Assembly (NCBI GenBank): GCA_902765595.1
Contig: CACXAQ010000012.1
Location: 1 to 53,743, forward strand
Origin: Oscillospiraceae bacterium
Lineage (GTDB): Bacteria > Bacillota > Clostridia > Oscillospirales > Oscillospiraceae
DNA length: 53,743 nucleotides
Direction of reading: 5' to 3'
Of this stretch, positions 20,600 to 48,253 are shown one piece after another; the first letter of the stretch is position 1; every line of letters begins with the position of its first letter. The notes beneath the pieces were generated by a model. That model was not told where the DNA came from and did not search any database. It saw nothing but the letters and a program-made list of their open reading frames with translations. A program made the translations under genes and the position numbers.

Positions 20600-20776
20600 A
20601 TGAAAGCAACCGGAATCGTGCGGCGGATCGACGACCTGGGGCGTGTGGTGATCCCCAAGGAGATCCGCCGCACCATGCGCATCCGCGAGGGTGACCCGTC
20701 ACAGACGACATTGGAAAAATGGCAAAAATTCAGCTTTTCCATGTTGGATTTGGCCAAAAGGATGGGGATTGAGTAG
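20600..20776 (+). pseudogene. spoVT: spoVT 5' fragment (33 codons) joined to the recombinase tail
   Basis: The first 33 codons are the start of SpoVT, an AbrB-type forespore regulator: MKATGIVRRIDDLGRVVIPK, EIRRTMRIREGDP. At GGTGACCCG (codons 31-33) homology stops. The frame runs on for 25 codons (ending KRMGIE) to TAG 20774-20776. Those 25 codons would be the recombinase C-terminus in the circular element. The AbrB fold is cut between its two halves, so this 58-residue product should not be a working DNA-binding domain. A good ribosome binding site is present, so it may still be translated. Confidence 0.93.
20690..20714. other. attL: core repeat plus one attP arm
   Basis: Core GGTGACCCG (20690-20698). 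The element-side arm is CCGTCACAGACGACATTGG (20696-20714). Its complement, CCAATGTCGTCTGTGACGG, matches the arm at the other end (47784-47802) at 17 of 19 positions. Confidence 0.88.
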
Positions 20777-20828
20777 TACATATTGACGGAGAATGACTGT
20801 TCTACCATGCGCATCCAAGAGGGGTCAA
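20746..20828. repeat. Diverged 83-bp direct repeat, copy A
   Basis: Aligns without gaps to 23008-23090 at roughly two thirds identity, with best conservation in TTCTACC and CATCC...GAG.GGTCAA. It also contains ACCATGCGCATCC (20804-20816), identical to spoVT bases 20672-20684 just before the attachment core and in the same reading frame. It may be a decayed attachment-site relic or an old coding fragment. Confidence 0.6.
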
Positions 20829-20943
20829 AAAAGTTGCACAAAGGACCTAAAGCCTTGAAATGACTGATTTTTTGCCGTCATAACCTTTTTCAATGATTTC
20901 AGCAGCGGTAAATCAGACCCCGAAAAAAGTGCAGGATTACCAG

Positions 20944-20988
20944 AAAAATCCCCTGGGATCGGCTAAAACAGCCTTCCCTAGGGGATTG
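20944..20988 (-). terminator. Terminator after the DUF4325-type regulator
   Basis: On the minus strand AATCCCCTAGGGA pairs with TCCCAGGGGATT and is followed by TTTTTC. The rest of 20777-21019 shows no gene. Confidence 0.8.
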
Positions 20989-21019
20989 ATCTTTGTTGAC
21001 CCCCCGATAAAGGATCTCG

Positions 21020-22027
21020 CTATGATTGCATCACGTGGCGAATCATCTTTTCCACGTCCTCCGTCATCCCGATCGGCAGGAGACGGATATCCGGATGCTC
21101 GTTTTGGAACACGACAAACAGCTGATGGGCAAAGCCCTGCCCGATCCAGTCCAGCCCGGTGAAATCAAGCGTTACTTCTCTAAATCGGTCCAGACGGCTG
21201 CAAAGCCTCTTCGCCTGAGAGCGGGATACAGGACTCGACTCGAAGTATTGCTGAAGCGGGATCTGTGTTTTCGTGAACCCGCTGTCAGGATCGGCATATA
21301 GGTCAAACACGTCTTTTGCTTCTTTATTTGAAAAATTGGAGAGAGTCATTCGCACAATGGTTCCCTTGGCCGGGAGCTCATTGATGAGCTTGTCATTTTC
21401 AAAGCGGCTGTGCGTAAAGATCAGACCGGAGGAGAAGATCACGAATTCATCCGCAAGGCGGGAGGAAAAGAAGATGCCTTCGCCTGAATGATGGGCAGAG
21501 TCCGTGGTGATTTTTCCCTTGAAAAGCTCTCCAACCGCCTCTTCAAGTTCTGACAGGCCGAGATAGGCTCGAATCTTTTCAAAGATCCCGATCCCATCGT
21601 CTGCAATCTGGACACAGGTATTCAGATAATCCTGCGTTACCGTTATATCCAGATGCTCCGCCTGCGAGTGGTCGATCACATTGTTGATGATTTCTCCGCA
21701 CAGATAGTCCCAGATCCCGCGCACATTTGCAGGATAGCCCGCAAGGAGAGGACGCACAAATTGTCCGTAGATCGTGTCCTCGGAAGAAAAGATGGGATTG
21801 TTTCTTCCGAGACGTGTGTGCGCTGTCCTTGTTGTAAGAACATACTGATCCCGTTTTTGTTTTTGAATGATGCCGTCGTGTTCAAGCTGATCCAGATAAC
21901 GGTATACCGTCGCTGGTGTCACATCAAAGGTCTCGGCTGTTTTACGAACAACGGACGTTTGCTTTTGTGAGATCTTTTCCAGCAGATAGAGCCTGAGCTG
22001 CTCTGCTTTATTTGCACTTAAGCTCAT
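21020..22027 (-). CDS. HTH / GHKL-ATPase / DUF4325 (STAS-like) regulator
   Basis: A 335-residue three-part protein. Residues about 1-70 form a helix-turn-helix (SVVRKTAETFDVTPATVYRYLDQLEHDGII). The middle has a histidine-kinase-like ATPase signature: an N box (CGEIINNVIDHSQAEHLDI) and DDGIGIFEKI. The end has a STAS-like DUF4325 pattern with VTLDFTGLDWIGQGFAHQLFVVF (about residues 290-312). Start ATG 22027 has GAAGGAGATGATC. The upstream AAGTATA array suggests autoregulation. Such proteins probably combine nucleotide binding with DNA binding; the exact signal is unknown. It is the first gene inside the left end of the island. Confidence 0.82.
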   Translation of the reverse strand: MSLSANKAEQLRLYLLEKISQKQTSVVRKTAETFDVTPATVYRYLDQLEHDGIIQKQKRDQYVLTTRTAHTRLGRNNPIFSSEDTIYGQFVRPLLAGYPANVRGIWDYLCGEIINNVIDHSQAEHLDITVTQDYLNTCVQIADDGIGIFEKIRAYLGLSELEEAVGELFKGKITTDSAHHSGEGIFFSSRLADEFVIFSSGLIFTHSRFENDKLINELPAKGTIVRMTLSNFSNKEAKDVFDLYADPDSGFTKTQIPLQQYFESSPVSRSQAKRLCSRLDRFREVTLDFTGLDWIGQGFAHQLFVVFQNEHPDIRLLPIGMTEDVEKMIRHVMQS

Positions 22028-22048
22028 CAGATCATCTCCTTCAGCAAA

Positions 22049-22137
22049 AAGTATAGTTGAAACTCTACTTGATGTCAATAGATATTATACTTAACAGATC
22101 AAGAAAATATACTTTTGGCCGCACAAGTATATTTTCT
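22049..22137. promoter_or_regulatory. AAGTATA operator array
   Basis: Four AAGTATA half-sites: 22049-22055 (+), 22086-22092 (-), 22108-22114 (-), 22125-22131 (+). The last two lie in a perfect 13-bp inverted repeat, AGAAAATATACTT and AAGTATATTTTCT, with a 10-bp spacer. They sit directly upstream of the HTH/DUF4325 gene. Confidence 0.75.
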
Positions 22138-22209
22138 CAAATCGGTGAGGGCTGGTCATCTCGCTGTCATCGCTTACTCTTGCGGCAAAGAAAACCTTTG
22201 CGGTGTTTC

Positions 22210-22245
22210 AAAAAGGAGTGCCAATTCTAACGAATGGCACTCCTT
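22210..22245 (-). terminator. Terminator after the 22253-22950 gene
   Basis: On the minus strand GGAGTGCCATTCG pairs imperfectly with ATTGGCACTCC and is followed by TTTTTG. Its position just after the second-frame stop supports that frame as the true 3' end of the gene. Confidence 0.78.
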
Positions 22246-22252
22246 CCACGGT

Positions 22253-22950
22253 CTATTCCCATTCCCTCCATCCAGAGACGTTCAGCCATTCGGAGACAGG
22301 GGTTTTGCTTTCTCCGATGCATTGGTCGAAAGAGATATTTCTGTGCGGATTATAAAGGGTGTTTTGCTCACGCTTTTGTTTCTGCGTCAGGCTCTTTATG
22401 CTGTTAAATGCTTTCACTCTGGAAAAACGCCCAGTCTCATCCAATGCTTCATAGCAACACAGGATCATATCATGTAAGCCATCTTCGTCTGTCGTTTCAG
22501 ACAGCAGAGAGAAAACAAAAGCCCGAATCGTAGGCGGTAAGGATTCTATTTCCGCTGCAAACCTGTTTGGCTTTTTTGCTGGGTTGTAGGAGGGTTTTCG
22601 CTATGATCCCCTTGCCAGAAACCTAATTCTTTATTGTAACTGACTTCATATCTTGCAGGTAATGCAATTTTGTGGTCTTTGAGATGTTCTAACGCGGAGG
22701 GAAGTCGCTTGGATCCATTCTTGGGAAATCTGACCGCGTTCTCAGAAACGGACTCAATGATACAAAGATGTTTTGCATCCTCAGTAAACCTTATTTGAAC
22801 AGGTTTCCCGCTCAGCTCCGCTGCAAGTTTCCCGTTCATAATCAGTCTGCCATCTGTGTAAATGTTCACACGCAGGCTACTGATATATGAGTCGGGAGGA
22901 TCTACGATAAAAGTGAACTGCTCCAATGGTAGAAATTTGTTTGTTGCCAT
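22253..22950 (-). pseudogene. Hypothetical protein gene with a -1 frameshift at an A6 run
   Basis: Frame 1 runs from ATG 22950 (AAGGAGG site 8 bp before) to TAG at 22546, 134 residues (MATNKFLPLEQFTFIVDPPD start). Its last residues after QGDHSENPP look non-native. The -1 frame continues with protein-like sequence (KPNRFAAEIESLPPTIRAF, then CCYEALDETGRFSRVKAF) to TAG 22253, immediately before a terminator. The two frames overlap at A6 (minus strand, 22577-22572); one extra A would join them. Thus the gene is either broken by a one-base loss, read by slippage, or affected by a sequencing error. Family unknown. Confidence 0.7.
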
Positions 22951-23007
22951 TTTGGTGGCCTCCTTATATTTGATCTGCACATAGTGCAAAGCCAGTATAC
23001 AAGGCAA

Positions 23008-23400: not shown

Positions 23401-23419
23401 CGTTTCCCCCCTTTTTTCT

Positions 23420-27610: not shown

Positions 27611-28468
27611 TTAATCCAAGAAGAATGCATCAACTTCTTCAAGAGAATTCAATACTTCCTCTTCCCTGACCCCTGCTGCGCGAGCAAGTGCTGCGGATTG
27701 AATCAGCCGCTCATGAAGACCGGGAGTAAACGCATCTTCGATCAGATGCCGGAATTGTTCTGACTGATTGTGGACTTCGTTACAATATTCTTCATATTGC
27801 TCCTGAAGTTGTTTGTCAAGCTCATGTTGATTCTCAAGATAGGCGCTCAGAATTGCCTGCTCTTTTTCGTAGAGCCGATATCTTCCGTATTCAAACGCCA
27901 ACTGCGAAACGGCCTGTGCCAGCTGCGAATACTCTTTGCCAATCAGCGAACTCAAAGAGGATGACAAAAGCTTAATCATGGCTTCTAACGACAACCATAA
28001 GCAATCATCAACATAATCGACCTCTGCTATTCTTCCCTTCTGCAGAAGCGCGGATTTGCTCCGTATTTCGGAAGAGATACTCTTTATGGAAGCAAGAGAT
28101 CCCTTTGAAACGATCTTGGATATTCCTTTCGCTGACAGGTCTATGTAATCAGCGTATAGACTGAAAATAAACTCACTGTAGCACTGGCCTTCTTCGAGAA
28201 CAGCATATTTTGAGACATTGCTTGCAATGTCTGTCCAGTCTTCCGCCTTTATTTCCTTGGCTTTTTTCCCCGCTGCCAATGTATCCACAAGGAATATTTG
28301 AAAGACAGTTCCCATTTTCAGGAGATTCAACTTCGCGCTGTCTTCGCTGGCTGCGAGTGCGCATAGGTTTTTCTGCACTGTTGCGATTGTTTTCATTGCT
28401 TGTTGTATCTTCTCTCCCGCGGAAGATGTGAGCAATTCTTCGATCGCGATTTCCTTTATGATATCCAT
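27611..28468 (-). CDS. Helical hypothetical protein, partner of the 28482 gene
   Basis: A 285-residue helical protein starting MDIIKEIAIEELLTSS. ATG 28468 has AGGGGAACTGC. No membrane helix is obvious; the second half is rich in coiled-coil-like sequence (KEQAILSAYLENQHELDKQL). It begins 13 bp after the stop of the 334-residue membrane-inserting protein, so the two form a pair. I infer a partner or regulator of that protein. Family unknown. Confidence 0.7.
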   Translation of the reverse strand: MDIIKEIAIEELLTSSAGEKIQQAMKTIATVQKNLCALAASEDSAKLNLLKMGTVFQIFLVDTLAAGKKAKEIKAEDWTDIASNVSKYAVLEEGQCYSEFIFSLYADYIDLSAKGISKIVSKGSLASIKSISSEIRSKSALLQKGRIAEVDYVDDCLWLSLEAMIKLLSSSLSSLIGKEYSQLAQAVSQLAFEYGRYRLYEKEQAILSAYLENQHELDKQLQEQYEEYCNEVHNQSEQFRHLIEDAFTPGLHERLIQSAALARAAGVREEEVLNSLEEVDAFFLD

Positions 28469-28481
28469 AGCAGTTCCCCTG

Positions 28482-29486
28482 TTAAGCAACCGTCTTCCCA
28501 AACAGCGCGGATAGTGCCTTTGTCTGATTGACCAGTGCACCAAGACTTTTCTTTTGCTCATCAGAGAAGGAAGTGTAATCCCCGTTAACCAATGCAAGGC
28601 AATTCAAATATGTTCCGCTTACACCCTCTCGGACAGCAACAGTTTCCTCCAGGATCTGCATGATCTCTGTATCCAGCTCTTTGATTTTCTCAGTATTCTT
28701 CTTTACCGCTTCAATCTCCTCATTTTTCTGCTTGTTGAGCTTTGCCTTTTTGCTCGTGAAGAGGAGTATCGAAGTCAGAAGAGTAGCGCCTGCAATCGTC
28801 CAGCCGATTGGTCCCGCCATGGCTAGAAGCGCATTCCCGGCAACAATCCCTCCGCCGCCTGCCGAAAGAGCACCGCCACCCAGCCACGCAAGCGCAGCAT
28901 TCGTTGCAGCCGCACCGGACAGTGCCGAGATTGCAGTTCCCGTTGACGCTGTCCCGAATGTGGTGGCAACCCACATTGCAGCAGTGGGAGCCATAAACGC
29001 AACAGACGCTCCTGCAGCGATACCAGCGCCTGCCCCGCCAGCCGCCTCACGTGCAGCTTGAAGTTCGCGCTGTCCAAAATCCTGGAGGCTTAAGAAGCTG
29101 TCTCTTTCAAGCCGGATTTCTTCAAACTCCGCGTCGAATGCTTTCGGGCGGTTAGCGATGCTGTTGACAAGACTCTCTACAAAACCGATCATATCAACGG
29201 CACGTGTTCTCTCAATGAAAAGCTGAACGCCTTTATCGCTCATCAAGGTATAAGCATCATTGTACTCCGTAACGGACGATTCCAGCATACGATCCAATTC
29301 TGTAAGTTTTTCCGCGATATCATCCTTCATTGCCATTGCGGAATCTCTGATTTCCACGGCCTTCCCACTGATAATCTCTCCGGCTTTTGCGGCCTTTTCT
29401 TTTGCCGCTTCAAGATCAATTGCCGAGGCGCTCTTAACGGCTGCATTTTTAATGGATTGAAGGCTGATCTTTTTCTTGTCTGTCAT
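28482..29486 (-). CDS. Helical protein with Gly/Ala-rich membrane-inserting segment
   Basis: A 334-residue protein. Residues about 1-160 are amphipathic helices. About 160-265 is an unusual glycine/alanine-rich hydrophobic stretch (AGGAGAGIAAGASVAFMAPT, later GGGALSAGGGGIVAGNALLA and AGPIGWTIAGATLLTSILLF) that could form one or two membrane hairpins. The remainder is a coiled coil (KLNKQKNEEIEAVKKNTEKI). This layout resembles helical pore-forming or membrane-remodelling proteins. The ATG 29486 has GGGGGAATTA. In a defence-rich island a membrane-damaging effector is a reasonable but unproven idea. Confidence 0.7.
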   Translation of the reverse strand: MTDKKKISLQSIKNAAVKSASAIDLEAAKEKAAKAGEIISGKAVEIRDSAMAMKDDIAEKLTELDRMLESSVTEYNDAYTLMSDKGVQLFIERTRAVDMIGFVESLVNSIANRPKAFDAEFEEIRLERDSFLSLQDFGQRELQAAREAAGGAGAGIAAGASVAFMAPTAAMWVATTFGTASTGTAISALSGAAATNAALAWLGGGALSAGGGGIVAGNALLAMAGPIGWTIAGATLLTSILLFTSKKAKLNKQKNEEIEAVKKNTEKIKELDTEIMQILEETVAVREGVSGTYLNCLALVNGDYTSFSDEQKKSLGALVNQTKALSALFGKTVA

Positions 29487-29625
29487 GATATAATTCCCCC
29501 ATGTTATATTTTCAAGACGATGGTTTTCGACGGAACTAGGGATACTCAGCTTCTTTTGATTACGCCTGGCGCGGAGATGATTCATTCGCAAATAAACCCA
29601 GCATTCAGCGGAAAAGAGGCTATCT

Positions 29626-30951
29626 TTACTCGCCCCCGATCATCGTCCCCATCGACCCTATCAGATACAGCGGGATCAGGCGAACTTCGCTTCCGCTGAC
29701 CTCGTCCAGCATGGAGGTTTTGACCGAAACGGGCGGCGCGTACTTCTTGCGATACTCGGCCAGAGAGCGCGCCTTCACGTTGCTCTCCGCTTTCACCTCG
29801 ATGGGAACGATGTGTGCGCCGCATTGAACGATGAAGTCGACCTCGGCGCTGTTGCCCGAAACCCAATAGTACGGCGTGGCGTCCACGTGCTTGACCAGCT
29901 CGCCAAGCACATAGTTCTCGGTCATGACGCCCTTGAACTCCGTGTAGATCCCGGAGGAATCCAGTACGACCTGGGCAGGCAGGCGAGCCAGGCGGCGCAG
30001 CAGGCCCACGTCACAGAGATAGAGCTTGAAGCTGGTGGCATCCGCATAGGAGGACAGCGGCATAAACGGCTTCTCCACCTTGCAGACCTGATACACCAGC
30101 CCGGCGCGGATCAGCCATTGCAGCGCGTCCTCCAGATCCTTGGAGCGCCAGCCCTTTTTCACGTGACTGAAAATGAACTTGCTGTTGGGCTTGGCCAGCT
30201 GCTGCGGCACGGACGCCCAGATCGCGGAGAGCTTGGGGAACTCGCTGGGCGGGGCATGCTTGGCGAAGTCCAACTCGTAGCTTGCGAGGATATCCTGCTG
30301 GATGGCCTCGACCTTTTCCAGATCCCCCGTCTCGCACCAGACAGAGACCGCTTCCGGCATCCCGCCGACCACATAGTACTGCTTCAGCGCCGTGCAGAGC
30401 TTGCCGCCGATCAGTTCCGAGACAGACGCACCCGGCTGGAAGCGGGTCAGATAGTCCGCCAGGGCCTCATTCCCCGTCGCCGAAAGGAACTCATAGAAGG
30501 ACATGGGGTACAGCGTGCGGATATCTACCTTGCCCACCGGGAAGGACTGGTTCTCATGGATGGCAAGTCCGAGCAGGGAGCCGGCGCAGGCCACGTGATA
30601 CTCCGGCGCGTTCTCGCAGAAATACTTCAGCGCCGTGATCGCCCGCGGGCACTCCTGGATCTCGTCCAGAATGATCAGCGTGTTGCCGGGCGCGATCGTC
30701 CTGCCCAGGTACAGCCCCAGCTCGAACAGGATACGCTTCACGTCATAGTCCTGCTCGAAGAGCGAACTCAGGGAGCGGGTTTCCTCGAAGTTGAAATAGG
30801 CGACGTCCGCATAATGCTCCCGCCCGAATTCCTTGAGGATATAGGTCTTCCCGCATTGGCGCACGCCCTTCAATACCAGCGGCTTGCGGTTCGGCTGCTC
30901 CTTCCAGGCGAGCAGCTCCTGTGTGATATCCCGTTTCATAGGACGCATCAT
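29626..30951 (-). CDS. AAA ATPase with DUF4143 domain
   Basis: A 441-residue protein. Walker A is GVRQCGKT (residues about 29-36), Walker B region LIILDEIQECP (about 92-102). The C-terminal DUF4143 part ends with a nuclease-like pattern, AEVDFIVQCGAHIVPIEVKAE (about residues 375-396). The family is widespread in anaerobes and its function is not established. Several ATGs are clustered at the start; the fourth, at 30939, also fits GAGAGGG. Single gene, with a hairpin terminator between it and the next gene upstream. Confidence 0.88.
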   Translation of the reverse strand: MMRPMKRDITQELLAWKEQPNRKPLVLKGVRQCGKTYILKEFGREHYADVAYFNFEETRSLSSLFEQDYDVKRILFELGLYLGRTIAPGNTLIILDEIQECPRAITALKYFCENAPEYHVACAGSLLGLAIHENQSFPVGKVDIRTLYPMSFYEFLSATGNEALADYLTRFQPGASVSELIGGKLCTALKQYYVVGGMPEAVSVWCETGDLEKVEAIQQDILASYELDFAKHAPPSEFPKLSAIWASVPQQLAKPNSKFIFSHVKKGWRSKDLEDALQWLIRAGLVYQVCKVEKPFMPLSSYADATSFKLYLCDVGLLRRLARLPAQVVLDSSGIYTEFKGVMTENYVLGELVKHVDATPYYWVSGNSAEVDFIVQCGAHIVPIEVKAESNVKARSLAEYRKKYAPPVSVKTSMLDEVSGSEVRLIPLYLIGSMGTMIGGE

Positions 30952-33664: not shown

Positions 33665-35758
33665 TTACTCCGCTCCCAAGGCTTTAAACACGGCGTCTTC
33701 TGCGCTGCTGTAGAAAATCAGGTTGAAGCAGCCGATCAGATCCGACGGCACGGTTCCCAGGTCTGCGGCAGAGGTGATCGGGAGCAGCACCTTCTTCGCT
33801 CCGCTGTCGAGACAGACCTGCAGGGCGTTTGCGAGCTCGTCCACCTTGAGCATAGTGCCGCTGATGCTGATCTCACCGAGGACTGCCATGGAGCTGAGGA
33901 CAGGCTTGCTGAGCGCAATAGAGCACAGCGCGATAAGCGTTGGCAGGGCGAGTGTTCCCGTTATGCCGATGCCCTGGAGATCCTGGTAGTTGATGATGTA
34001 GTCCTTGGCTGTCGTGCTGATGGAGCCGCTGATGCGCTTTCCGTTGGCCTTCAGGAAGTTGAACGCCGTGTTGGTGGCTTCGCGTGCATCCCGATCCGTT
34101 CCGATTCCCGTCCGCTCGAACTTGCCGCTGCCGGGGAGCATTTGGCTTTCCAGACGGAACACGCCGATCATCCCGGCTTTCCCCCGGCTCACGGTGTAGA
34201 CTTGCCCTGGATTGCACATCCCTTCAGGAATGAGCTTCCCGCCGCCCTGCTCCGGCACGGACACGTAGTGCTCCTCGAAGGTCTCGTTGTCAATGTAGGA
34301 GAAGTTCACGTCATAGAACTCCATGCCGCCCAATTTCTTGAGCTGTTCCTTGACCCTGCGCCGCATCTCCAGCGCGATCTTCAGGATCTCTTCAAGGTCC
34401 TCCTTGGTGAAGTCCCCATCCGGGTAGATCAGCTTCACCAGACCGCCGACCATCTTTCTGACAGCGATGGTGTCCCGCTGGTTCAGGTTCTTCCCGAGCT
34501 TATAAAAGCGATCCAGCGCGTCTCCGTACTGCTCCTTCCGCAGCTCGCGCAGGAACTCCGCCAAGTAGTCGGTGATAAATCCATAGTCATCGGTAAAATG
34601 CTCCGGACGGAACTTGGGGACCTCCCAGCCTGGGATATAGCAGTGCATGCGGTCGAGGAAAGCGGTATCAGTCCCCATCTCCGGCGGGAAGGGGTCAAAC
34701 AGAGAGGCCGTCTTCAGCAGCACATCCACGCTCTGGTTAATGTTGCCGACGAAGGCCATAGACGCGTTAGCAGCCTTCTCCTCCTTGCCGCGGGCAAAGG
34801 AGCCGGAAGCCATATAGTCCTTCATGATCTGGATGCCGTCTTTGTCCTTGAACTTGATGCCGGCGACTTCGTCGAAGGCAACGCAGTCCCACAGACCCAC
34901 CAGGCCCATGGTGTGCTTGCCCATGTTGTAAAACAGGTTCGCCACCGTCGTCTGTCCGCCGGAGACCAGGATGCTGTTGGGCGAGATCTCTTTGAACAGG
35001 TGGGACTTGCCGGTACTGCGCGGTCCCAGCTCGCAGAGATTGAAGTTGTTTTCGACCAACGGGGTCATGCGCAGCAGGAGCAGCCACTTCTCCCGATAGG
35101 AAAGCTCGTCCGGTTCCATACCGATAGAGCGCAGCAGAATGTCGATCCACTCATCCTTCGTAAATGCCTTGCGCCCGGCTTTCAGATCCGCAAGATCCAC
35201 ATGCGGCATCTGGATCGGGGTAAGTTTCCGGATACTAATGAGAGATTCATTCTTCTTTCGGGGCTTTTTCTCCACGAGGGAGGCGTCGGAGTCCTGATCA
35301 CTGGTGTACTCTAGCTGGATGATGCACCAGATGCCGCCACAGAGGAGCCTATCATACTTCTCCGGGTACTCTTCGGAGATAGGAATACTTCCCAGGCCGA
35401 GGTTTGAGAACCGCGCTTCATACTGGTCGTATTTCAGGTTCAGCTCCACGTTAACCTGATCGATAATCGTCATGGCGCCGCGCTGCCGCAGGCGGGATAG
35501 CACCTTTTCCGACTCATCGGGGCGCACATAGTTGTCCGCGAGGATCCGCTTGACATTCTCCACGCCCCTTGCCACGATCTCGTCATCGTCAGAGCTGCAA
35601 TACTGCCCGAGTAGGAACTCCAGGACATAGGTCGGGACATTCGCCCCCTCCTTGATCTTCTTGGTCAGATCCTTGCGCACGATCTTGCCGTCAAAATGCT
35701 CGCGCAGTTTGGCTTTCAGCGTCTCTCTCGCACTGTTCATCATATCGGTCTGATCCAT
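33665..35758 (-). CDS. brxL: BREX protein BrxL (Lon-like AAA protein)
   Basis: A 697-residue BrxL. The N-terminal domain is followed by an AAA core with GPRSTGKSHLFKE as Walker A (about residue 245) and the BrxL-typical ISPNSILVSGGQTTVANLF and DCVAFDEVAGI. The C-terminal Lon-like domain contains GEISISGTMLKVDELANAL and KKVLLPITSAADL (about 650). I do not see a classic Lon GPSAG serine motif. BrxL is the last gene of BREX type 1 systems and acts with PglZ and others to block phage replication. It is full length. A 162-bp gap with no recognised gene separates it from the J-domain gene. Confidence 0.92.
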   Translation of the reverse strand: MDQTDMMNSARETLKAKLREHFDGKIVRKDLTKKIKEGANVPTYVLEFLLGQYCSSDDDEIVARGVENVKRILADNYVRPDESEKVLSRLRQRGAMTIIDQVNVELNLKYDQYEARFSNLGLGSIPISEEYPEKYDRLLCGGIWCIIQLEYTSDQDSDASLVEKKPRKKNESLISIRKLTPIQMPHVDLADLKAGRKAFTKDEWIDILLRSIGMEPDELSYREKWLLLLRMTPLVENNFNLCELGPRSTGKSHLFKEISPNSILVSGGQTTVANLFYNMGKHTMGLVGLWDCVAFDEVAGIKFKDKDGIQIMKDYMASGSFARGKEEKAANASMAFVGNINQSVDVLLKTASLFDPFPPEMGTDTAFLDRMHCYIPGWEVPKFRPEHFTDDYGFITDYLAEFLRELRKEQYGDALDRFYKLGKNLNQRDTIAVRKMVGGLVKLIYPDGDFTKEDLEEILKIALEMRRRVKEQLKKLGGMEFYDVNFSYIDNETFEEHYVSVPEQGGGKLIPEGMCNPGQVYTVSRGKAGMIGVFRLESQMLPGSGKFERTGIGTDRDAREATNTAFNFLKANGKRISGSISTTAKDYIINYQDLQGIGITGTLALPTLIALCSIALSKPVLSSMAVLGEISISGTMLKVDELANALQVCLDSGAKKVLLPITSAADLGTVPSDLIGCFNLIFYSSAEDAVFKALGAE

Positions 35759-37577: not shown

Positions 37578-40181
37578 TCACACAGAGAAATCAAACTCAT
37601 CAAAGGCAAACGCGATGTCGATTTGGAATTCCTCTTTCACCGGTGCCTGCAGACCGCTCTCATCCGCGATCACCAGAAAATACGGCTTTCGATCGCTGTA
37701 GCTCTGGGAGCGCAGATTGAAGTTGCAGCGGAAGGTCCGCTTCTGAGGGTCGTCGCTGGTCTTGTCGGCAATAATCTTATTCGTGTCGCTAATCTTCTGC
37801 CCGTTTTCATCCGTGAAGTAGAGCAGATACGTTGCCTTTTCGCGGTTCCCGCCGACGGCCTCCTTCTGGTGGAAGCTCAGCGAGAAGATCATGTTGCTGA
37901 TCTTACGGCTTGCGGAGACCAGGCTGATGGTGACGGGCTTGGTGTCGATCTTGTCCCTGTTCATCTGATACTGCTTGGTCGAGCTTCGCAGGAACTGGAA
38001 CTCCAGAACCGGAACGACCATCTCCTGCAGGCTGATGCCGCCGTGTACGAAGTTCAGGCCGCCGCCCTTTTTTTTAATCCGGACGTTCTCCCGGGGCGTA
38101 AAGGCATCGTAGGGCGCAGTTCCGTCGAAGAGCCGCACCGGCATCAGATACTCCGGCACCGCACCCTTCCTGGTGATCAGGTAGCGGCGGTCGACCTCCA
38201 CGTCCATATCGCCGGGTGTGGTCTTGTCGACCTTGCTGTCTTCATTCAGCGGGCTGTATGTATAAAGAAAGCCATGGTCAGCGGTGACAATGACATTTGT
38301 CCCCCCGAATTCATTTACAATGATCCGGATGAGATTCTTGATCTCGTCGATGGCGTCTTCACAGGCCTGGAAAACGCCGCTGTCGGACGTGTGGCTGACC
38401 TCGTCGATCTTGTCGTGATAGATGTAGACGACCTCGCTGCCTTTCACAAGCGCCGCTCTCTCGGCTCTCTTGAGCCCGATGATGCTGTCATAGCGCAGGG
38501 CGATGCCGCTGGGTTCCATGGCCTTCAGGACCTTCTCCCGCATCCCCGCGTCGGTGGACATGCCATCGGCTTGTACCGCGAGCGTGCCGTTGCCTTTTTC
38601 GACGATCTCCAGCTTTCGATGCGGGAGCAGCGCCGCCATACCGTACTTCGTCGCCGTGGGGAAGATGCTCTCGCAGCTGTCCAGCTTCACCTTACACTGC
38701 ATTTCCCGCTGGAGTTGTTCAGAGAGGGAAACTGCGACCTCGTAGCGGAGCGCGTCGGAGATGATGACGAAGATCCGGTTGGATCTGTATTTTATGCGGC
38801 TTAGATAGAAGTCCTTTTGTTGGGGGAGATCCTGGATCGACCCCAATTGGGCAAGATCGTCCACGCAGGCGTCGGACCAGTTCTCGCCCAAAAGGCTGAG
38901 GAACCAGTGAGCATACAGGCCTTCCACCTTGTCCGCCACATGCTTGAACAGGTCGTCCAGAAGGGGCTCAGAGCGCTTCAGGCTACGCTGGAAGCACAGA
39001 TGGAACTGCCGATAGAATGTGTCCATCTGATAGTAATCCGTCGTGTAGGCCTTCCAGATGCGCTGTGGCTCCACCAGGTGAAAGCCCGCGGAGTGCTCCA
39101 GGAAGAAGGCCTGCATATTGGCCACCTGGAGGAGCCCGTCGTAATAGCAGGCGACCTTGTCGTACCAGGCCATGGCGCGCCGCTTCTGGACGCAGGCCTT
39201 GATGCTGTCCACCTGGATGATATGGTCGCTGATCTCCTTCATCAGGGCCACCAGGATGCACTCATTGATGCAGGGGAAGCATTCGGTATCCGCCAGATCC
39301 CCAACGGCGAGCTGCGAGAAACGCTGCCGGAGACGCGCAGCATGTTCCACATAGCGTGCGATCTCAAAGAAGCGGGAGTTATCCTCGCTGTGCAGCTGAT
39401 CAGACACAAAGTCATAACACCAGGCCTGATGGGGCGTGGAGAGGTAGGGCTCCAACCCGGCAAGAAGGTCCGGATGCATTGTCCGCGTGGCGGCTGTCAG
39501 CAGCAGATGCGCGGCGAAGCGGCCCAAACTCGGCTCCTCACCCGTCTGATACCCGGTGGCCTGGGAAACCATGACCCAGAAGGGCTTGTCCGCCCCATAA
39601 GTCACGAAGCTCTGGTACACCTTATTCTTTTCCAGATCTAAGCCTGCTTCCAGCACAGCCTTAACGATGGCGGCAGGGCGAAGACTACCGCAGCCGCAGA
39701 GCGCGGCCATTACCGCCAAATGCATCTGCGAAGCGGTGGAGATGCCACTGCCCAGCTTCTTTACAGCGTCCCGGCGCTCTTTCGCCCGGAAGAACTTCCG
39801 GTAGCGCTTTACCTGGTTGCGGAGGATGGGCGTGGCGTCCAGGCCCATCTCGACCATCCAGATAGAATTCAGGTCTGCGCGGAACTCTTCGCTGTAGAGC
39901 CGCACATTGATGAGCCAATCGTCATCGTCCCGTGTGATGCTGCGCGGATCGTAGACCAGGAAGTTGGAGCGCAAATCGTCCTCGCACAGCAGCTTTTTCA
40001 CGGCGAAGGTGTTGCTGCCGGTCAGTGCGACGATCCTGACGCCGTCCAGTTCAATGCTGTCCAGCTGATCCTCAAATTCTCGCTCCTCATCGTACCAGAA
40101 GATGATCCTCCTCTGATAAAACTCCGGCAGTGGCGCGGCAAAGCGGCGCTCCAGTTCCTGTGTGATCTTTTCGGCATCCAT
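37578..40181 (-). CDS. pglZ: BREX phosphatase-like protein PglZ
   Basis: An 867-residue PglZ. The N-terminal part begins EKITQELERRFAAPLPEFYQ and has RRIIFWYDEEREFEDQL. The alkaline-phosphatase-superfamily core shows IFVIISDALRYEVAVSLS (about residue 470), HDKIDEVSHTSD, and VTADHGFLYTYSPL (about 632). PglZ is the signature protein of BREX systems. Full length. It is preceded by an AGGAGGC site and by a 226-bp gap rich in palindromes. Confidence 0.92.
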   Translation of the reverse strand: MDAEKITQELERRFAAPLPEFYQRRIIFWYDEEREFEDQLDSIELDGVRIVALTGSNTFAVKKLLCEDDLRSNFLVYDPRSITRDDDDWLINVRLYSEEFRADLNSIWMVEMGLDATPILRNQVKRYRKFFRAKERRDAVKKLGSGISTASQMHLAVMAALCGCGSLRPAAIVKAVLEAGLDLEKNKVYQSFVTYGADKPFWVMVSQATGYQTGEEPSLGRFAAHLLLTAATRTMHPDLLAGLEPYLSTPHQAWCYDFVSDQLHSEDNSRFFEIARYVEHAARLRQRFSQLAVGDLADTECFPCINECILVALMKEISDHIIQVDSIKACVQKRRAMAWYDKVACYYDGLLQVANMQAFFLEHSAGFHLVEPQRIWKAYTTDYYQMDTFYRQFHLCFQRSLKRSEPLLDDLFKHVADKVEGLYAHWFLSLLGENWSDACVDDLAQLGSIQDLPQQKDFYLSRIKYRSNRIFVIISDALRYEVAVSLSEQLQREMQCKVKLDSCESIFPTATKYGMAALLPHRKLEIVEKGNGTLAVQADGMSTDAGMREKVLKAMEPSGIALRYDSIIGLKRAERAALVKGSEVVYIYHDKIDEVSHTSDSGVFQACEDAIDEIKNLIRIIVNEFGGTNVIVTADHGFLYTYSPLNEDSKVDKTTPGDMDVEVDRRYLITRKGAVPEYLMPVRLFDGTAPYDAFTPRENVRIKKKGGGLNFVHGGISLQEMVVPVLEFQFLRSSTKQYQMNRDKIDTKPVTISLVSASRKISNMIFSLSFHQKEAVGGNREKATYLLYFTDENGQKISDTNKIIADKTSDDPQKRTFRCNFNLRSQSYSDRKPYFLVIADESGLQAPVKEEFQIDIAFAFDEFDFSV

Positions 40182-40407: not shown

Positions 40408-41664
40408 TCAGTGAATGGGCGGCTCCTGAAGCCAACTCTTTTCCGGAAGTTTGTCCGCAAGCGAGAGTTCGCCAATACCTCTGTACTGCTCGTATAGGTG
40501 CCAAGCTTTGATTTCATTTGCCTTCGACCATCCATCAGCAAAATACTCATCTGGACACAGCCCTTGGGTTAGTCCTTTTTCCTTCAAAGCCTTTTCGTAC
40601 TCCTGTTGAGTAGAACGCAGGTTCTCTAAGACGAACTTGTCAAATCGTTTTTTGTCGGTGTCGTTGTGAAACACAAGAAATGCTACCCCCGGCAACTTGT
40701 TCCATCTTTCCCCATACCAATGGTTATCCGAATATGATAAGCAGAGAAACAGCTTGCCTAATATGGTTTCAGTATTGAAATAGACATACGTCAAAGACGC
40801 TCCCCTTGTTAGGCTCCTACCCGACGGAACAGTATCTGATTGAGGGAATGGGATCAAAAGGCGAGCCCCATCAAGATAAAGGACCTTACACCTGAACAAA
40901 ACAGTTGAATGGTATGAAATGACTGCCTCGCTGACAGTATACGATGGATCAAATTGGTTTTCTGCGATGTTTTTCATGATGAGGTTATCGGAAAACCGTT
41001 TCTGATCCTCAATATCCCGAATCCTTATCTGGAATTCTGGAAACAATTTATGATACATGGCTTGCCCATTGTTAAAATCTCCAAGCCAATCCTCCGGGTG
41101 ATCCAAGAGCCGAGACAATTTCTCAGTAATGGACAAGTCAATTCCAAATCTTTTTCTCCATAAGTACTCTATCTTGTCTAGGTCAGCTATGGAATCTATT
41201 GGTGTGTTGGTGTCGCCGATCCTCGTATAGATGTAACCTGCTCTGACTTCTCTATCGCGATCTCTCTCCTTCTCCAAAAGGAAGAATGGGGTTTTAGAAG
41301 AATTTGGAATAACAATAACGTCAACTTTCTGGTCGACCTCTTTTTCATCAGGAATCTTGATCGTCTCAAGATATATTGTTGGACGCAATCCGCCTGCGAA
41401 TTTCTTGCCTCGCAAGAAACTAATGAGTTTTTGTTGGTCTCGTCTGTTCTCTTCCGGAACACCTTTGACCTTTACGCCATCAGGGCTCTTGCTGTCACTG
41501 ACTCCAATGATAATGTACGCATCTTTTCCGACTTGATTGTTGGCCATGCAAATGATGTCATGAAGAAGATCTGCTTTGTTACTGTGCCACTTTTCTTTGA
41601 AGTCCCAGTAGTCTCCCTCAGTTTTGAGTTCAATCAGGCTCTTTATTGTATCAACCAAATCCAT
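40408..41664 (-). CDS. AlbA_2/Schlafen-type putative DNA-binding protein
   Basis: A 418-residue protein. The N-terminal AlbA_2 (Schlafen AAA_4) domain is recognised by EGDYWDFKEKWH (about residues 16-27), LLHDIICMANNQVGKDAYIIIGVSD (about 35-59) and later YIYTRIGDTNTPID (about 145-158). The C-terminal two thirds is unassigned. Such proteins are frequent in defence islands, including BREX loci. ATG 41664 has GAGGAGGAA; it begins 11 bp after the truncated pglX stop, in the same operon. Confidence 0.85.
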   Translation of the reverse strand: MDLVDTIKSLIELKTEGDYWDFKEKWHSNKADLLHDIICMANNQVGKDAYIIIGVSDSKSPDGVKVKGVPEENRRDQQKLISFLRGKKFAGGLRPTIYLETIKIPDEKEVDQKVDVIVIPNSSKTPFFLLEKERDRDREVRAGYIYTRIGDTNTPIDSIADLDKIEYLWRKRFGIDLSITEKLSRLLDHPEDWLGDFNNGQAMYHKLFPEFQIRIRDIEDQKRFSDNLIMKNIAENQFDPSYTVSEAVISYHSTVLFRCKVLYLDGARLLIPFPQSDTVPSGRSLTRGASLTYVYFNTETILGKLFLCLSYSDNHWYGERWNKLPGVAFLVFHNDTDKKRFDKFVLENLRSTQQEYEKALKEKGLTQGLCPDEYFADGWSKANEIKAWHLYEQYRGIGELSLADKLPEKSWLQEPPIH

Positions 41665-41675
41665 AAGTTTCCTCC

Positions 41676-42455
41676 TCACTTGATCTTGGCCAACACGTCC
41701 TCAAACTTTGCGTAGTTGACCTTGACGCCGTCGTCCAGGTCGATGGGGATCATCTGGTCGGCGAGGTGGTGGATCTTTTCCTCGTAGACGCGGAGCTCTT
41801 CGGCCTGGTCTCGGAGCTTCTGGAGCTGCTTTGACAGCTTCACTCGCTCGGCGGTGGAGGCGGCGGCCATGCGGGCCTCCAGGTCGGCGATGGCGGTGCG
41901 GTAGCGGCTCTGCTGCTCGTGGACATAGTCCGTGCGGATGCGGGCGATGGTGTCCGGCTGGTAGCGGTGCATGTAGATCAGGCACTTGAAGCCGTTCTTC
42001 TTGCCGCTGTCGAAAAGCCAATAGATCGGGCGCTTCTGATACATCTTCAGGTGATCGGGATAGAAGTCGTTGAGGAAGTAGCTGCGGATCACATCCCGGG
42101 GCGAGCCTTTGCCGCCCAGGGCGTCGGCGATGAAGCGCAGGTTTTGTTCGAGCGTTTCTTCCCCGTAGACCTCTTCAATGAACCGTACGAAGCGACCCAC
42201 GATGTCATCTTTGAAGTACTCATCATCGCATATGGGAATAATGTTATCCGCGTCCGGCTCAAGCATCTCATGAAAGATGACCCCGTTTGTCCGATATTCC
42301 GGTTCCAGCTGCTCTTGACTGATCACCCCAGGCTGGTCATTTAGTTTATCCACGAAAGACTTCAAGGAATACGGTTCTCCGGCAAAGAGCAGGCCTGGTT
42401 TGTAGATGCTGTAGCGGCCGAACATGCAGCCCACGGCGTAGGAGATCAGAGATCG
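41676..42455 (-). pseudogene. pglX: pglX 3' remnant (BREX adenine methyltransferase, C-terminus only)
   Basis: About 260 codons at the C-terminus of PglX. The remnant starts at RSLISYAVGCMFGRYS, which in full PglX lies near residue 900, and continues through GRFVRFIEEVYGEETLEQNL, FYPDHLKMYQKRPIYWLFDS and a coiled coil ending LAKIK. The methyltransferase domain (NPPY motif) is missing. The only in-frame starts are GTG 42434 and ATG 42425, without a ribosome binding site. Homology begins at about 42446-42455, exactly where an unrelated 117-residue gene stops, so a recombination or deletion junction lies there. The product cannot methylate DNA. Confidence 0.9.
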
Positions 42456-43193: not shown

Positions 43194-44279
43194 TTACGAA
43201 ATATCAACCAGCACTACCCAATGGCCGTTGCGTTTTCCGTTGGCGCGGCGGAGGTAGCCTTTTTCTTGAAGTGCAACCGTGCGTGTTTTAACCGTGCGCT
43301 CCGATCTGCCGATCATTGCGGCAAGATCTTTCTGTGTGATCGTCGGGTTTGCTGCAATTATGCTAAGCACAGCCAGCTCTTCCAAAGTGCAAGAATTGCA
43401 CTTTGAAACATCGACGATGGCACTTTGGGGCGGAGCATCATCGGCTTTGTAATTCACATGGAGATAACGGTTTTTCAATTCATGCTGCGCGCCGAGCAGG
43501 AGGTTTTCAAAAAACTTTTCTAGGAACTCGCTCGTGGCATGGATTCCTTTTTGCAGATTGTTGTAGTTGGCGCGCACAAGAGCATTGCGGAAATACCAGG
43601 AGTTGGCTGCGAACACATCGTTGTTCACCGCGAAGCCGAAGGACTTCAAATACTTCACGATGAAAACCGCAGTAGCGCGTGTGTTGCCCTCGCAGAAGGG
43701 GTGGATCTGCCAAATCCCCGACGCATATTTCGCCATGTGTTTGATCGAGTCGGGAACGGAAAGCGTGTCATAGGAGAACTGCTTTTCCTGTGAGAAATCG
43801 TAATCCAGCGTATCTCGGATGCTCTCCCAAGACGAATACACGACGGTATCGCCGCCGAGCACCCACTCGTTTTTTGTGATGTTGTAGGTGCGGAATTGGC
43901 CCGCGTGATCGAAGACACCGTTGAACAAACGCCTGTGAATGCTCTGCAGCTCGGCGGGAGAAAACTGAAAAGTTTTCTCTCCCAGCAGTTCGGTGATGCG
44001 TGCGGAAACGATGTCCGCTTCCATTGTGCCGGCTTCGACTGCCTGACGATTCTTCTGTTCCTTGTAGTAGCTTTGAATGCGGCGCTGCGCTCCGGCAATA
44101 TCGATATTGCCTTCGATGTGTTCTTTTGCAGTCTCCAACAAGTACGAAGAAGTTTTCAGTCCATCCACCGCCTGGAGACCGATGGCCGTTTGCCAGGCCG
44201 CACTTTTTTCGACGCGCTCCGGCTCGCCCTGACGGATGTATTCACTTAATTCAAGCTGCCATCTGTCCTGCTCAGGCAT
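43194..44279 (-). CDS. Fic-domain protein with C-terminal winged helix
   Basis: A 361-residue Fic protein. The catalytic motif HPFCEGNTR lies at about residues 192-200, preceded by the FNGVFDHAGQFRTYNITKNEWVLGG flap region. The C-terminus is a helix-turn-helix (ITQKDLAAMIGRSERTVKTRTVALQEKG). Fic enzymes AMPylate proteins; this N-terminal-extension, HTH-containing form is usually autoregulated, and an inhibitory helix may sit near TAKEHIEGN (about residues 50-58). ATG 44279 has AAAGGAG. It has its own terminator and stands at the place where the brxA-C genes would be expected. Confidence 0.88.
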   Translation of the reverse strand: MPEQDRWQLELSEYIRQGEPERVEKSAAWQTAIGLQAVDGLKTSSYLLETAKEHIEGNIDIAGAQRRIQSYYKEQKNRQAVEAGTMEADIVSARITELLGEKTFQFSPAELQSIHRRLFNGVFDHAGQFRTYNITKNEWVLGGDTVVYSSWESIRDTLDYDFSQEKQFSYDTLSVPDSIKHMAKYASGIWQIHPFCEGNTRATAVFIVKYLKSFGFAVNNDVFAANSWYFRNALVRANYNNLQKGIHATSEFLEKFFENLLLGAQHELKNRYLHVNYKADDAPPQSAIVDVSKCNSCTLEELAVLSIIAANPTITQKDLAAMIGRSERTVKTRTVALQEKGYLRRANGKRNGHWVVLVDIS

Positions 44280-44607
44280 GGATTTCAACTCCTTTGCGCT
44301 GCGATGCTCTGTAGATATTTTACCACATAGCCGGAACTAATACAAACGAAAAACTGCAAAAGGCACTATGTATAATTGCATCCTTCTTCCCGAAGGGTGC
44401 GTTTCTATATGGATCGGTTTCGGCTGATCCGGTTGCTTTTACTTTAGGGCTGATCAAGCATTTCCTTTTTGATTGGCAAATCAAAAACCGTGACTGCCGC
44501 AGGCAGGAACCGCGGCGAAAGACGCAAAGTGGATCGAGGGATTGGGGAGCGAAATCCCCAACAAGTGCCGTAGGAAAAAACACGAAATTCATTTTTGTCT
44601 GTCAAGG

Positions 44608-45730: not shown

Positions 45731-45741
45731 AGAAGCATATT

Positions 45742-45830
45742 CGACCCATCGTTCAAGCCTTGGCACCTTGCCGCAAAGCGGTAGGTTGTCGTGCGGTCAA
45801 CGAGCTTGTCTCTCGCGCACTCTTTATGGT
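45742..45830 (-). promoter_or_regulatory. SAM-I/IV-variant-like riboswitch candidate
   Basis: Read on the minus strand: AAAGAGTGCGCGAGAGACAA, GCTCGTTGACCGCAC, GACAACCTACCG, then GGCAAGGTGCCAA and GAACGATGGG. The GAGTGCG...CGCAC stem with an internal CGAG/CTCG helix, the ACAACC segment and the AAGGTGCCAA strand match the SAM-clan core, but the first helix differs from the S-box found before metK. A terminator that competes with its 3' end follows. It lies in the leader of the 115-residue gene. Confidence 0.65.
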
Positions 45831-45981
45831 GAATGTATCATATCATAAGCAGAGGAAGAAAACAAGCGATTTCAGACGGAAAGACTGTTTCACGGTCGAA
45901 TGAATCAGCCGGCACAAAGAATACTAGTCAGAAAAGGATACGGTATTTCTGTTGAAGTGGCTTTCTGCAAAAAACTTTTTC

Positions 45982-46009
45982 TTGCATTCCCGACAAAATG
46001 TGTTACAAT
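45982..46009 (+). promoter_or_regulatory. Promoter of the recombinase gene
   Basis: TTGCAT (45982-45987) and TACAAT (46004-46009) with a 16-bp spacer, about 25 bp before the recombinase start. Confidence 0.6.
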
Positions 46010-46033
46010 ACTATCAACGAGTAAAAACGAAAG

Positions 46034-48253
46034 TTGGTGATTATTGTGATAGAGACCTTCGATATTGCGGGGTACTGCCGGATCTCCGTCGATGAGGAGC
46101 TGGACCGGGACAACACGTCCATCGAAAACCAGAAGGCGATCATCGAGGATTTTGTCAAGGAAAAGTTCCCCGGCAGCAGCCTGACCTTTTTCGAAGACCG
46201 CGACCGCAGCGGCTACACCTTTGAGCAGCGCGAGGGCTACCAGCGCATGCGCAGGGGGCTTTTGAACCACACATACGACATTCTGGTGGTCAAGGATTTC
46301 TCCCGTTTCTCGCGCCGCAACAGCCGTGGCCTGGTGGAGCTGGAGGATCTGCGCGATGCCGGGGTGCGCATCATCTCCATCGGAGACGGGATCGACTTTC
46401 CCAACGATGACGACTGGCTGAAGATCCAGTTCCAGTTTCTGATCAACGAGATGCCCGTCACAGATGCGTCAAAAAAAGTGCGCGCCGTTGTCAAGCGTCG
46501 TCAGAAAGACGGCCAATGGATCTGCGCCGCGCCCTACGGCTACAAGATCAACGCCCGGCAGGAATTCGAGATCGTACCCACCGAGGCCGAAGTCGTCCGC
46601 AAGATCTTCGAGCTCTATATCGACGGCTGGGGCTACAAGCGGATCGCCAACTGGCTGTCCGATGAGGGCATCCCCACGCCGCGTATGTCCGAGCGGGAGC
46701 GGAAAGAAGCCGAGGGCAAAGAGTACAAACGGCCGGTCAAATCGGTGTGGGCCATCGTCTCCGTGCAGGGGATCCTGGACAACGACTTTTACATCGGCAC
46801 CATGCGCCAGAGCAAATACACCCGCAAGAAGATCAATGGGGCGGATATCAAAAAAGACGTGAGCGAGCAGATCGTCATCGAGAACCACCACCAGGCGATC
46901 ATCAGCTACCGCGACTTCCGGATCGCCCAGGAGCTGCGGCAGTCCCGATCCAAGAGCGACTACCGGGGCGTAAAAAAATACGAGAACACCTATACCGGTT
47001 TTCTCGTATGCGGGGACTGCGGCAGTCCCATGTTCTCCATGAGCCGCCCGGATCTGCGGGACGCCTACCGCTGCGGCACCTATCATCGCCAGGGCTTGAA
47101 GGGCTGCACCAGCCATTATATCCGGGTGGACACGCTGGACAAGCTGCTGAAGGAATACCTCCGAAAAGTGCGGGAAACCTCGGCAAATATGATCGAAATC
47201 CTACAAAATGACATTCAAAAGCAGGATGAGGACCTGGCCGAGAAAGAGACCGCTGCTGACAACATGGAAGCGGTTCTCGAGGAGCTTCAGGAGGAGCTTC
47301 AAATCGCAAAACGGCAGCGCGTGCGCGATCTTCTGAAGCGCCCGCAAAACGAATCCATCATCAACCGCACCTACGACGAGATGGAGGCGGATATCGAAAA
47401 TCGAATTTCCAGCCTGGAAAAACAGATAGAATTGACCAAAAATCGCGAAAATACGATCATTCGGGTCAACAGAGCCGCGAAAACCGCCATCGAGGTCTTC
47501 GACGAGATTTTGGAGAAGGACAAGCTCGATCCGAAGGATCTGCACCTGATCATCGACAAAATTTACGTCTTTGAAGACCACATCGCTATCAAGCTCAAGG
47601 ACGACATCGACAGCATCCTCCGCTGCGGGACGCTCCCGGATGACCCGGTGGAAACACCAGAAGATGAAACTGATACCGAAATGTTCGAAAAGAGCGCCGA
47701 AACTTTTATTTCCGGCACGAAAGATAGCTTAAATGTCACAATAGTCCAGGAAACTGAGAAGCGCCCGGACAAGGTTTTTCGTGCCAATGTTATCTGTGAC
47801 GGTGACCCGCTGGAGATCTTCACCGATAAGGACGGGGAGCTGATCTTTAAAAAGTATTCCCCCGTCGGGGAGCTTTCGGATTTTGCCGCCCAGATCTGCG
47901 ACAGCCTGCGCAAGTCCACCGACGGCATCGCCGCCGTCTGCGACCGGGACGCGGTCATCGCCATCGCGGGCGGCGCACGGCGGGAGCTGCTGAACAAGCC
48001 TGTCAGCGCCCAGCTCCACGAGATCATGGAGGGGCGGCGGACCTACCGCCATCAGAGCGGCGGCAGCAGCGTGCCGGTGTCCTCGGAGGACGAGGGCTTT
48101 TGCCTGTCCGTGGCGGCCCCGATCCTGGCGGAGGGCGACGTGATGGGCTGCGTGCTGTTCGTGACGCCCCGGGGCAGCGTCCCGGGCACCGAGGTGGAGT
48201 ACAAGCTGGCCCAGACCGTAGCGCTGTTTTTGGGAAAACAGATGGAGAGCTGA
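46034..48253 (+). CDS. Large serine recombinase, fused in frame to the SpoVT C-terminal part
   Basis: A 739-residue fusion. Residues about 10-150 are the resolvase domain; the catalytic serine is in GYCRIS (about residue 18), with DFSRFSRRNSRGL later. The recombinase domain (about 165-310) is followed by a zinc ribbon (CGDCGSPM...RCGTYHRQGLKGC, about 325-360) and a long coiled coil (about 385-500). From GDP at codon 590 onwards the protein is SpoVT (LEIFTDKDGELIFKKYSPVG and its GAF domain). In the circular element the same gene should end after codon 592 with 25 other codons, giving 617 residues. The start is TTG 46034 or GTG 46046; neither has a strong site. Confidence 0.93.
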   Translation: MVIIVIETFDIAGYCRISVDEELDRDNTSIENQKAIIEDFVKEKFPGSSLTFFEDRDRSGYTFEQREGYQRMRRGLLNHTYDILVVKDFSRFSRRNSRGLVELEDLRDAGVRIISIGDGIDFPNDDDWLKIQFQFLINEMPVTDASKKVRAVVKRRQKDGQWICAAPYGYKINARQEFEIVPTEAEVVRKIFELYIDGWGYKRIANWLSDEGIPTPRMSERERKEAEGKEYKRPVKSVWAIVSVQGILDNDFYIGTMRQSKYTRKKINGADIKKDVSEQIVIENHHQAIISYRDFRIAQELRQSRSKSDYRGVKKYENTYTGFLVCGDCGSPMFSMSRPDLRDAYRCGTYHRQGLKGCTSHYIRVDTLDKLLKEYLRKVRETSANMIEILQNDIQKQDEDLAEKETAADNMEAVLEELQEELQIAKRQRVRDLLKRPQNESIINRTYDEMEADIENRISSLEKQIELTKNRENTIIRVNRAAKTAIEVFDEILEKDKLDPKDLHLIIDKIYVFEDHIAIKLKDDIDSILRCGTLPDDPVETPEDETDTEMFEKSAETFISGTKDSLNVTIVQETEKRPDKVFRANVICDGDPLEIFTDKDGELIFKKYSPVGELSDFAAQICDSLRKSTDGIAAVCDRDAVIAIAGGARRELLNKPVSAQLHEIMEGRRTYRHQSGGSSVPVSSEDEGFCLSVAAPILAEGDVMGCVLFVTPRGSVPGTEVEYKLAQTVALFLGKQMES
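47784..47809. other. attR: core repeat plus the other attP arm
   Basis: The element-side arm is CCAATGTTATCTGTGACGG (47784-47802) and the core GGTGACCCG is 47801-47809. Together with attL it defines a 42-bp attP with TGAC in the centre. The arm is coding sequence of the recombinase (residues ANVICD). Confidence 0.88.
47810..48253 (+). pseudogene. spoVT: spoVT 3' fragment (147 codons)
   Basis: Codons 34-180 of the original spoVT: the second half of the AbrB hairpin (LEIFTDKDGELIFKKYSP) and the GAF-like domain (AAQICDSLRKSTDGIAAVCD, AIAGGARRELLNKP, ending AQTVALFLGKQMES). It has no start of its own and is read only as the C-terminus of the recombinase. SpoVT normally tunes forespore SigG genes; the present split would prevent this unless the island leaves. 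It is followed by a strong terminator. Confidence 0.93.

Follow-up and report, generated by a model that had tools for sequence, protein, structure and literature searches.

A predicted exchange of 3' ends between a large serine recombinase gene and spoVT in a family of integrative elements of Oscillospiraceae-type Clostridia

Several recombinase-borne elements, namely skin in sigK, SPbeta in spsM and gin in gerE, split a sporulation gene at a short direct repeat such that rejoining restores the gene; for gin, the available part of the published description gives a 9-bp core, a size of 28.6 kb and restriction-modification cargo (PMC5595907). Here we analyze a similar island in the sporulation gene spoVT, within a 53,743-bp stretch of Oscillospiraceae bacterium DNA (contig CACXAQ010000012.1 of assembly GCA_902765595.1; hereinafter, the window). 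This island differs from skin, SPbeta and gin in that it targets a forespore regulator, its recombinase gene ends inside the target and it is known from sequence; the accessible portions of the published accounts of these three elements contain no case of a recombinase gene end exchanged with the target gene. A search of the open-access literature, with most subscription journals and preprints outside its scope, found no paper on elements in spoVT. The island very probably belongs to a family of elements with a dedicated large serine recombinase that carries the attachment site attP inside its own gene, inserts at spoVT codons 31-33 and, in doing so, swaps the 3' ends of the two genes.

The two parts of spoVT, both on the plus strand, are codons 1-33 (20600..20698), which encode the N-terminal part of an AbrB-type domain and retain the start codon and the upstream GGAGG, and codons 34-180 with the stop codon (47810..48253), which encode the SpoVT_C domain. 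They are separated by a 27,111-bp unit bounded by the 9-bp core GGTGACCCG, with the left copy (attL) at 20690..20698 and the right copy (attR) at 47801..47809, both on the plus strand; the island between the cores, to which no strand is assigned, spans 20699..47800, and the predicted circle is 27,111 bp. On its plus strand, the window has the core at 20690 and 47801, and the minus strand has one further copy (50417); a 9-bp match by itself is weak evidence within 54 kb. Joining the flanks in silico at the cores yields a single uninterrupted 180-aa SpoVT that reads ...MRIREGDPLEIFTDKDG... across the junction. The genome from which the window comes contains one SpoVT_C match and one close SpoVT N-terminus, the other match there being an AbrB-type paralogue (55%). 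Thus, as with skin-like elements, a sporulation gene is precisely interrupted and can be rejoined in frame.

These results bear out an earlier note on this DNA, which had placed the split at these coordinates, core and frame: the joined frame is a full 180 aa, and the genome holds a single SpoVT_C. The note had also proposed a comparison with relatives that have an empty spoVT, and same-genus genomes indeed contain intact spoVT genes, about 180-190 aa long, in which the predicted junction is present. Its overall interpretation, a recombinase-borne island with a precise empty site, stands in this respect; it missed the fusion of the recombinase with SpoVT_C and the tail swap described below, the width of the family and the conserved, vegetative-looking element ahead of the recombinase.

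At the right end of the island, the large serine recombinase has no stop codon of its own and runs in frame across the junction into SpoVT codons 34-180. The resulting open reading frame (ORF; 46034-48253, 739 aa) combines, according to Pfam, the Resolvase, Recombinase, Zn_ribbon_recom and SpoVT_C domains, the first three of which, in one protein, define a large serine recombinase. The recombinase portion spans 46046..47809 (plus strand), with a probable start at GTG 46046, as judged by comparison of upstream regions, and a frame open from TTG 46034. The predicted structure of the fusion has a mean predicted local distance difference test score (pLDDT) of 66.8 and a predicted template modeling score (pTM) of 0.40, with the domains separate, and solved structures match the two halves only (SpoVT, 2w1t; YokA, 9dxh). 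At the left end, SpoVT codons 1-33 run in frame into 25 codons and a stop (20699..20776, plus strand), forming a 58-aa ORF; these codons apparently encode the native C-terminal tail of the recombinase, SQTTLEKWQKFSFSMLDLAKRMGIE, in which no ssrA-like end is evident by eye. Read across the junction of the predicted circle, the 25 tail codons complete the recombinase frame; hence attP lies inside the recombinase gene, and integration exchanges the 3' ends of the two genes.

Under this scheme, attP would be located about 25 codons ahead of the true stop of the recombinase, which would integrate the circle into spoVT at the core, trading its tail for SpoVT codons 34-180, while SpoVT codons 1-33 would receive the tail. 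If the element were excised at the core, both genes would be restored exactly. Presumably, the same recombinase catalyzes integration and excision, the tail matters to the recombinase encoded on the circle, and excision in some cells would let spores form.

The rebuilt attP is an inverted repeat: the left half-site CCAATGTTATCTGTGACG (47784..47801, plus strand) pairs with the right half-site CCAATGTCGTCTGTGACG (20697..20714, plus strand) at 16/18 positions, and the arms pair at 9-17 of 18 positions in 23 other elements. Large serine recombinases characteristically have a short attP whose inverted-repeat arms flank a core in common with attB. In addition, a partial copy of the left attB arm, 18/22 identical, is found at +112 from the core (20802..20823, plus strand). 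The best match to this arm is at +111/112 in 17 of 41 elements (9/18 from the genus and 8/23 at the order level) and at +89 in genome G105; because the order-level scores (13-16 of 22) are within reach of shuffled sequences (maximum 16), it is the constant position that provides the evidence for this copy. The left junction of genome G078 is present, although a stricter junction pattern overlooked it. In many elements, the stop codon of the tail is overlapped or followed by a GTACATA-type motif (20774-20788 in the window), after which TGACG is often found.

The tail evolves as a protein. Among 23 order-level tails, the ratio of nonsynonymous to synonymous polymorphism (pN/pS) is 0.42 in the recombinase frame (95% codon bootstrap 0.29-0.56) and 1.06 in each of the other frames; with the attP arm left out, the recombinase-frame value is 0.33 (0.20-0.49). 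The 15 genus tails show similar values, 0.39 and, outside the arm, 0.30, with 0.80-1.98 in the other frames. Across the two sets, other-frame values of 0.88-1.50 accompany the ratios of 0.42 and 0.39. R21 and G23 are invariant in the 23 order-level tails, M15 is found in 22, and W8, C12 and L18 in 21. These statistics use 15/18 genus junctions, leaving out G105 (with its deletion), G016 and G092, and 23/26 order-level loci; two of the three unread loci have GDQ for GDP and a similar tail, and the third is L195. The product under selection could be the recombinase encoded on the circle, the SpoVT-N/tail peptide or both.

Given that the tail is conserved as a protein, it is of some use, which counts against the possibility that the fusion is a mere by-product, such that the frame and the tail come from one ancestor, and neither the added SpoVT_C nor the missing tail changes recombinase function. 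We nevertheless give this possibility almost even standing, slightly on the lower side: a single ancestral frame would yield every fusion, the chance of an in-frame junction at the origin is one in three, and additions of 79 to 147 aa often leave enzymes active.

Two described systems resemble this exchange. In mycobacteriophage BPs, attP also lies inside a coding gene, and integration alters the C-terminus of the product, providing integration-dependent immunity; according to the accessible part of that report, the repressor is shortened and loses a degradation tag (PMC4557955), whereas the recombinase of the spoVT island gains 147 residues of a host protein. In engineered fusions of large serine integrases with recombination directionality factors, as far as the available text describes them, a C-terminal addition can change the direction of the reaction (PMC5737554), a further point against the by-product scenario, which is tempered by the little or no effect of swapped, non-cognate partners. 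These fusions are man-made and employ the cognate directionality factor, and SpoVT_C is not known as one. The swapped tail could be a sensor of the integration state: the circle recombinase with its native tail would integrate, whereas the chromosomal form would carry SpoVT_C instead, and the integrated tail, encoded only behind SpoVT codons 1-33, would be made when the forespore turns on spoVT. The 58-aa peptide, expressed from the spoVT promoter in the forespore, would then act in trans like a directionality factor and trigger excision, so that turning on the split spoVT would itself mend the gene. We consider this scenario distinctly improbable.

Both kinds of junction seen in the window recur in many relatives. 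Among 102 same-genus genomes, 17 contain recombinase matches (E <= 1e-60), 16 with a close relative and one (G074) with a distant one only. All 15 readable junctions are fused in frame with SpoVT_C, and none of these 15 genomes has a second SpoVT_C match. In the sixteenth carrier, G096, the contig ends inside the recombinase; here, the family recombinase fragment lies at the edge of contig C159 (L101), and contig C13 holds an intact spoVT (206-aa frame), so that the assembly could mix empty and occupied cells or reflect contamination. Scanning named genomes yielded 587 pattern matches and 473 relatives; among the best 80 of the 473, 76 loci are fused, 3 are cut by the contig end and 1 (L177) is unfused. 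The two samples overlap because nine of the best 80 loci are genus records already counted (L106-L108 and L110-L114, eight loci, all fused, and L115, cut). The carriers include records named Oscillibacter valericigenes, Flavonifractor, Pseudoflavonifractor, Flintibacter muris and Butyricicoccus pullicaecorum, and a left junction with SpoVT-N and the tail was found in 26/30 carrier genomes chosen from the best 80. Judging from these sequences, integrative elements at spoVT appear to be a widespread family in Oscillospiraceae-type Clostridia.

The assembly that includes the window as one of its contigs is 84% complete, and an assembly or binning artefact could be suspected. However, this explanation is refuted, to the point of being extremely unlikely, by the recurrence of the junctions in numerous assemblies that are independent of one another, some of them from records not labelled as metagenomic, such as Oscillibacter valericigenes An411, Flavonifractor sp. 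An100 and Butyricicoccus pullicaecorum DSM 23266. Evidence of synteny around spoVT is confined to the right side: the DegV gene that adjoins spoVT in the window is found about 3 kb from intact spoVT in 2/9 larger regions fetched and near spoVT in 2/43 small loci, one of which is the locus of G006 where it lies beside a fused spoVT, and no left-flank neighbor genes were found in the 9 larger regions or the 43 small loci.

Comparison of divergence at synonymous sites across 51 fused genes (1275 pairs) showed that, in 55 of the 60 pairs with the closest recombinases, divergence is lower in the recombinase than in the SpoVT_C next to it. The junction is thus the border between element and host, with fusions arising repeatedly, and the recombinase moves horizontally. 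At the sequence level, the proposed family is supported by the junctions, the frames, the inverted-repeat attP, the conservation of the tail as a protein, the horizontal movement of the recombinase and the empty sites.

Several observations weigh against this scheme. The recombinase of L177 is at another site and ends 9 codons past the attP arm (around 1919); the DNA beyond it, on the opposite strand, resembles the lepA 3' end by eye. Left junctions are located upstream of an intact spoVT in G090 and G118, an arrangement for which the simple scheme does not account. The deletion in the tail of G105 and the broken recombinase frame of G111 suggest that some copies may be inactive. Finally, free attP, the signature of the excised form, is absent from 394 order-level genomes (at <=2 mismatches) and 102 genus genomes (at <=3), where diverged sites would be missed because the search pattern fits the consensus. 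Viral contigs yielded no free form among 10 loci either; 4 of these are close relatives (54-61% identity), one fused (L185), two fused up to the contig end (L186, L188) and one that stops at the junction (L187).

Other atypical loci were also observed. L094 (G090) and L095 (G098) each contain paired, diverged SpoVT-N/tail junctions about 2.3-2.6 kb apart on one contig, the G090 pair upstream of the intact spoVT; these look like relics of earlier insertions. In G118 (L093/L225, contig C29), a 2,289-bp repeat (99.96% identity) extends up to the core, beyond which one copy continues into the tail and the other into an intact spoVT, possibly a recent duplication or an assembly effect. G125 (the record of L118) has 7 matches to the SpoVT-N/tail query, several of them tail-only, with many relic ends. 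In L028 (G034:C14), about 40 bp are lost from spoVT directly after the core, shifting the frame, possibly a scar of faulty excision.

The lack of free attP, the low divergence of the recombinase relative to the adjoining host gene and the defense genes in several elements are all compatible with a plain selfish island that inserts into spoVT, renders its carriers poorly sporulating or non-sporulating, exits rarely and persists through horizontal transfer and defense cargo, with SpoVT_C appearing intact simply because the insertions are recent. This view, which we regard as plausible, if short of an even chance, is countered by the SpoVT_C portions, for which all 74 complete fused copies have an open frame of 143-151 codons, and by the retention of spoIVA in 12/15 genus carriers, the remaining 3 being 64-75% complete assemblies; both points are indecisive if the insertions are young.

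The same facts bear on a skin-like developmental switch, which adds regulated excision to the proposed scheme: the element would stay in place during growth and leave the chromosome in sporulating cells, so that the forespore would have a restored spoVT. In Clostridioides difficile, according to the accessible part of the report, spoVT depends on both sigma-F and sigma-G, and a mutant in this gene makes no heat-resistant spores (PMC3789822), so that a sporulating carrier should have to excise the element; the split gene should block spores, yet most genus carriers keep spoIVA. Furthermore, SpoVT_C is as constrained in the fusions as in intact genes, with median ratios of nonsynonymous to synonymous substitution rates (dN/dS) within the genus of 0.232 (70 pairs) and 0.236 (279 pairs), respectively, the intact set comprising 28 loci with some genomes probably represented twice; this equality fits a reversible insertion and, equally, a recent one. 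A precedent exists in skinCd, for which the available text describes a constitutive recombinase and a separately regulated directionality factor (PMC5025042). Conversely, the excised form was not found in the assemblies, and this analysis identified no directionality factor. Moreover, as a forespore gene, if C. difficile is a guide, spoVT would not fit the pattern of skin-like elements that target mother-cell genes: if excision took place in the forespore, the spore would be left without the island unless the circle were retained, a concern already raised in the earlier note and sound in principle given the sigma-F and sigma-G dependence. On balance, we view the regulated switch as possible but rather unlikely.

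With regard to expression of the recombinase, a vegetative-type promoter-like element, TTGCAT-16-TACAAT with a TG before the second box, was noticed by eye upstream of the gene (45982..46009, plus strand); a generic promoter scan of the window found none. The motif TA[CT][AT]AT[AG].?TATC is present upstream of the recombinase in 37/67 regions (300 nt; 0.08 in single-base shuffles), with a TTG-type box about 17 nt ahead in most cases shown. This motif resembles a vegetative promoter running into an attP half-site. A half-site copy matching at >=11/14 positions is found in 27/67 upstream regions, compared to 0.5 in shuffles, part of this excess being due to the -10 box; the right-arm consensus is far rarer (6/67 regions at >=11). 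In other loci, the recombinase closely follows another reading frame. Autoregulation of the recombinase is a guess. Control by a sporulation sigma factor was considered and rejected, as the upstream element is of the vegetative type, though only in 37/67 regions.

The cargo of the window island, all on the minus strand, includes BrxL (33665..35758), PglZ (37578..40181), the PADLOC candidate defense genes PDC-M09B, PDC-M09A and PDC-S01 (27611..30951), a Schlafen AlbA_2 protein (PADLOC candidate PDC-S50; 40408..41679) and a Fic protein (PADLOC candidate PDC-S72; 43194..44288). Bacteriophage exclusion (BREX) systems encompass the PglX methyltransferase and BrxC together with PglZ; neither PglX nor BrxC was found among 25 island ORFs by Pfam or among 10 by PADLOC, so the locus does not qualify as BREX. 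Among ten other elements, sampled from chosen large ORFs only, the cargo comprises DruE (G084), Mza genes (G121), a methyltransferase and RhuM (G127), SspC- and PbeA-like genes (G142), a type ISP enzyme (G138), a caspase-domain protein (G105), HlyD and SLH proteins (G145) and a Mob_Pre relaxase alongside genes for transport and for a sugar kinase (G066); two G140 ORFs and one G146 ORF gave no cargo call. Defense genes are thus common, not universal, among these elements. The family resembles integrative mobilizable elements and defense islands with serine recombinases in having a terminal recombinase, an att site at either end, variable cargo and, in G066, a relaxase; the window island differs in that Pfam detected no relaxase or conjugation family among its 25 ORFs besides the recombinase, and it is accordingly not classed as conjugative or mobilizable.

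Taken together, these comparisons indicate that gene-intervening elements in which a serine recombinase and its target gene swap ends are, most likely, real and widespread. If the exchange controls the direction of recombination, it would be a natural counterpart of the engineered integrase fusions and a compact recombination switch. In gut Clostridia, spoVT appears to be a recurrent landing site for islands, including defense islands, which raises the question of how an element lives in a gene that the forespore probably needs.

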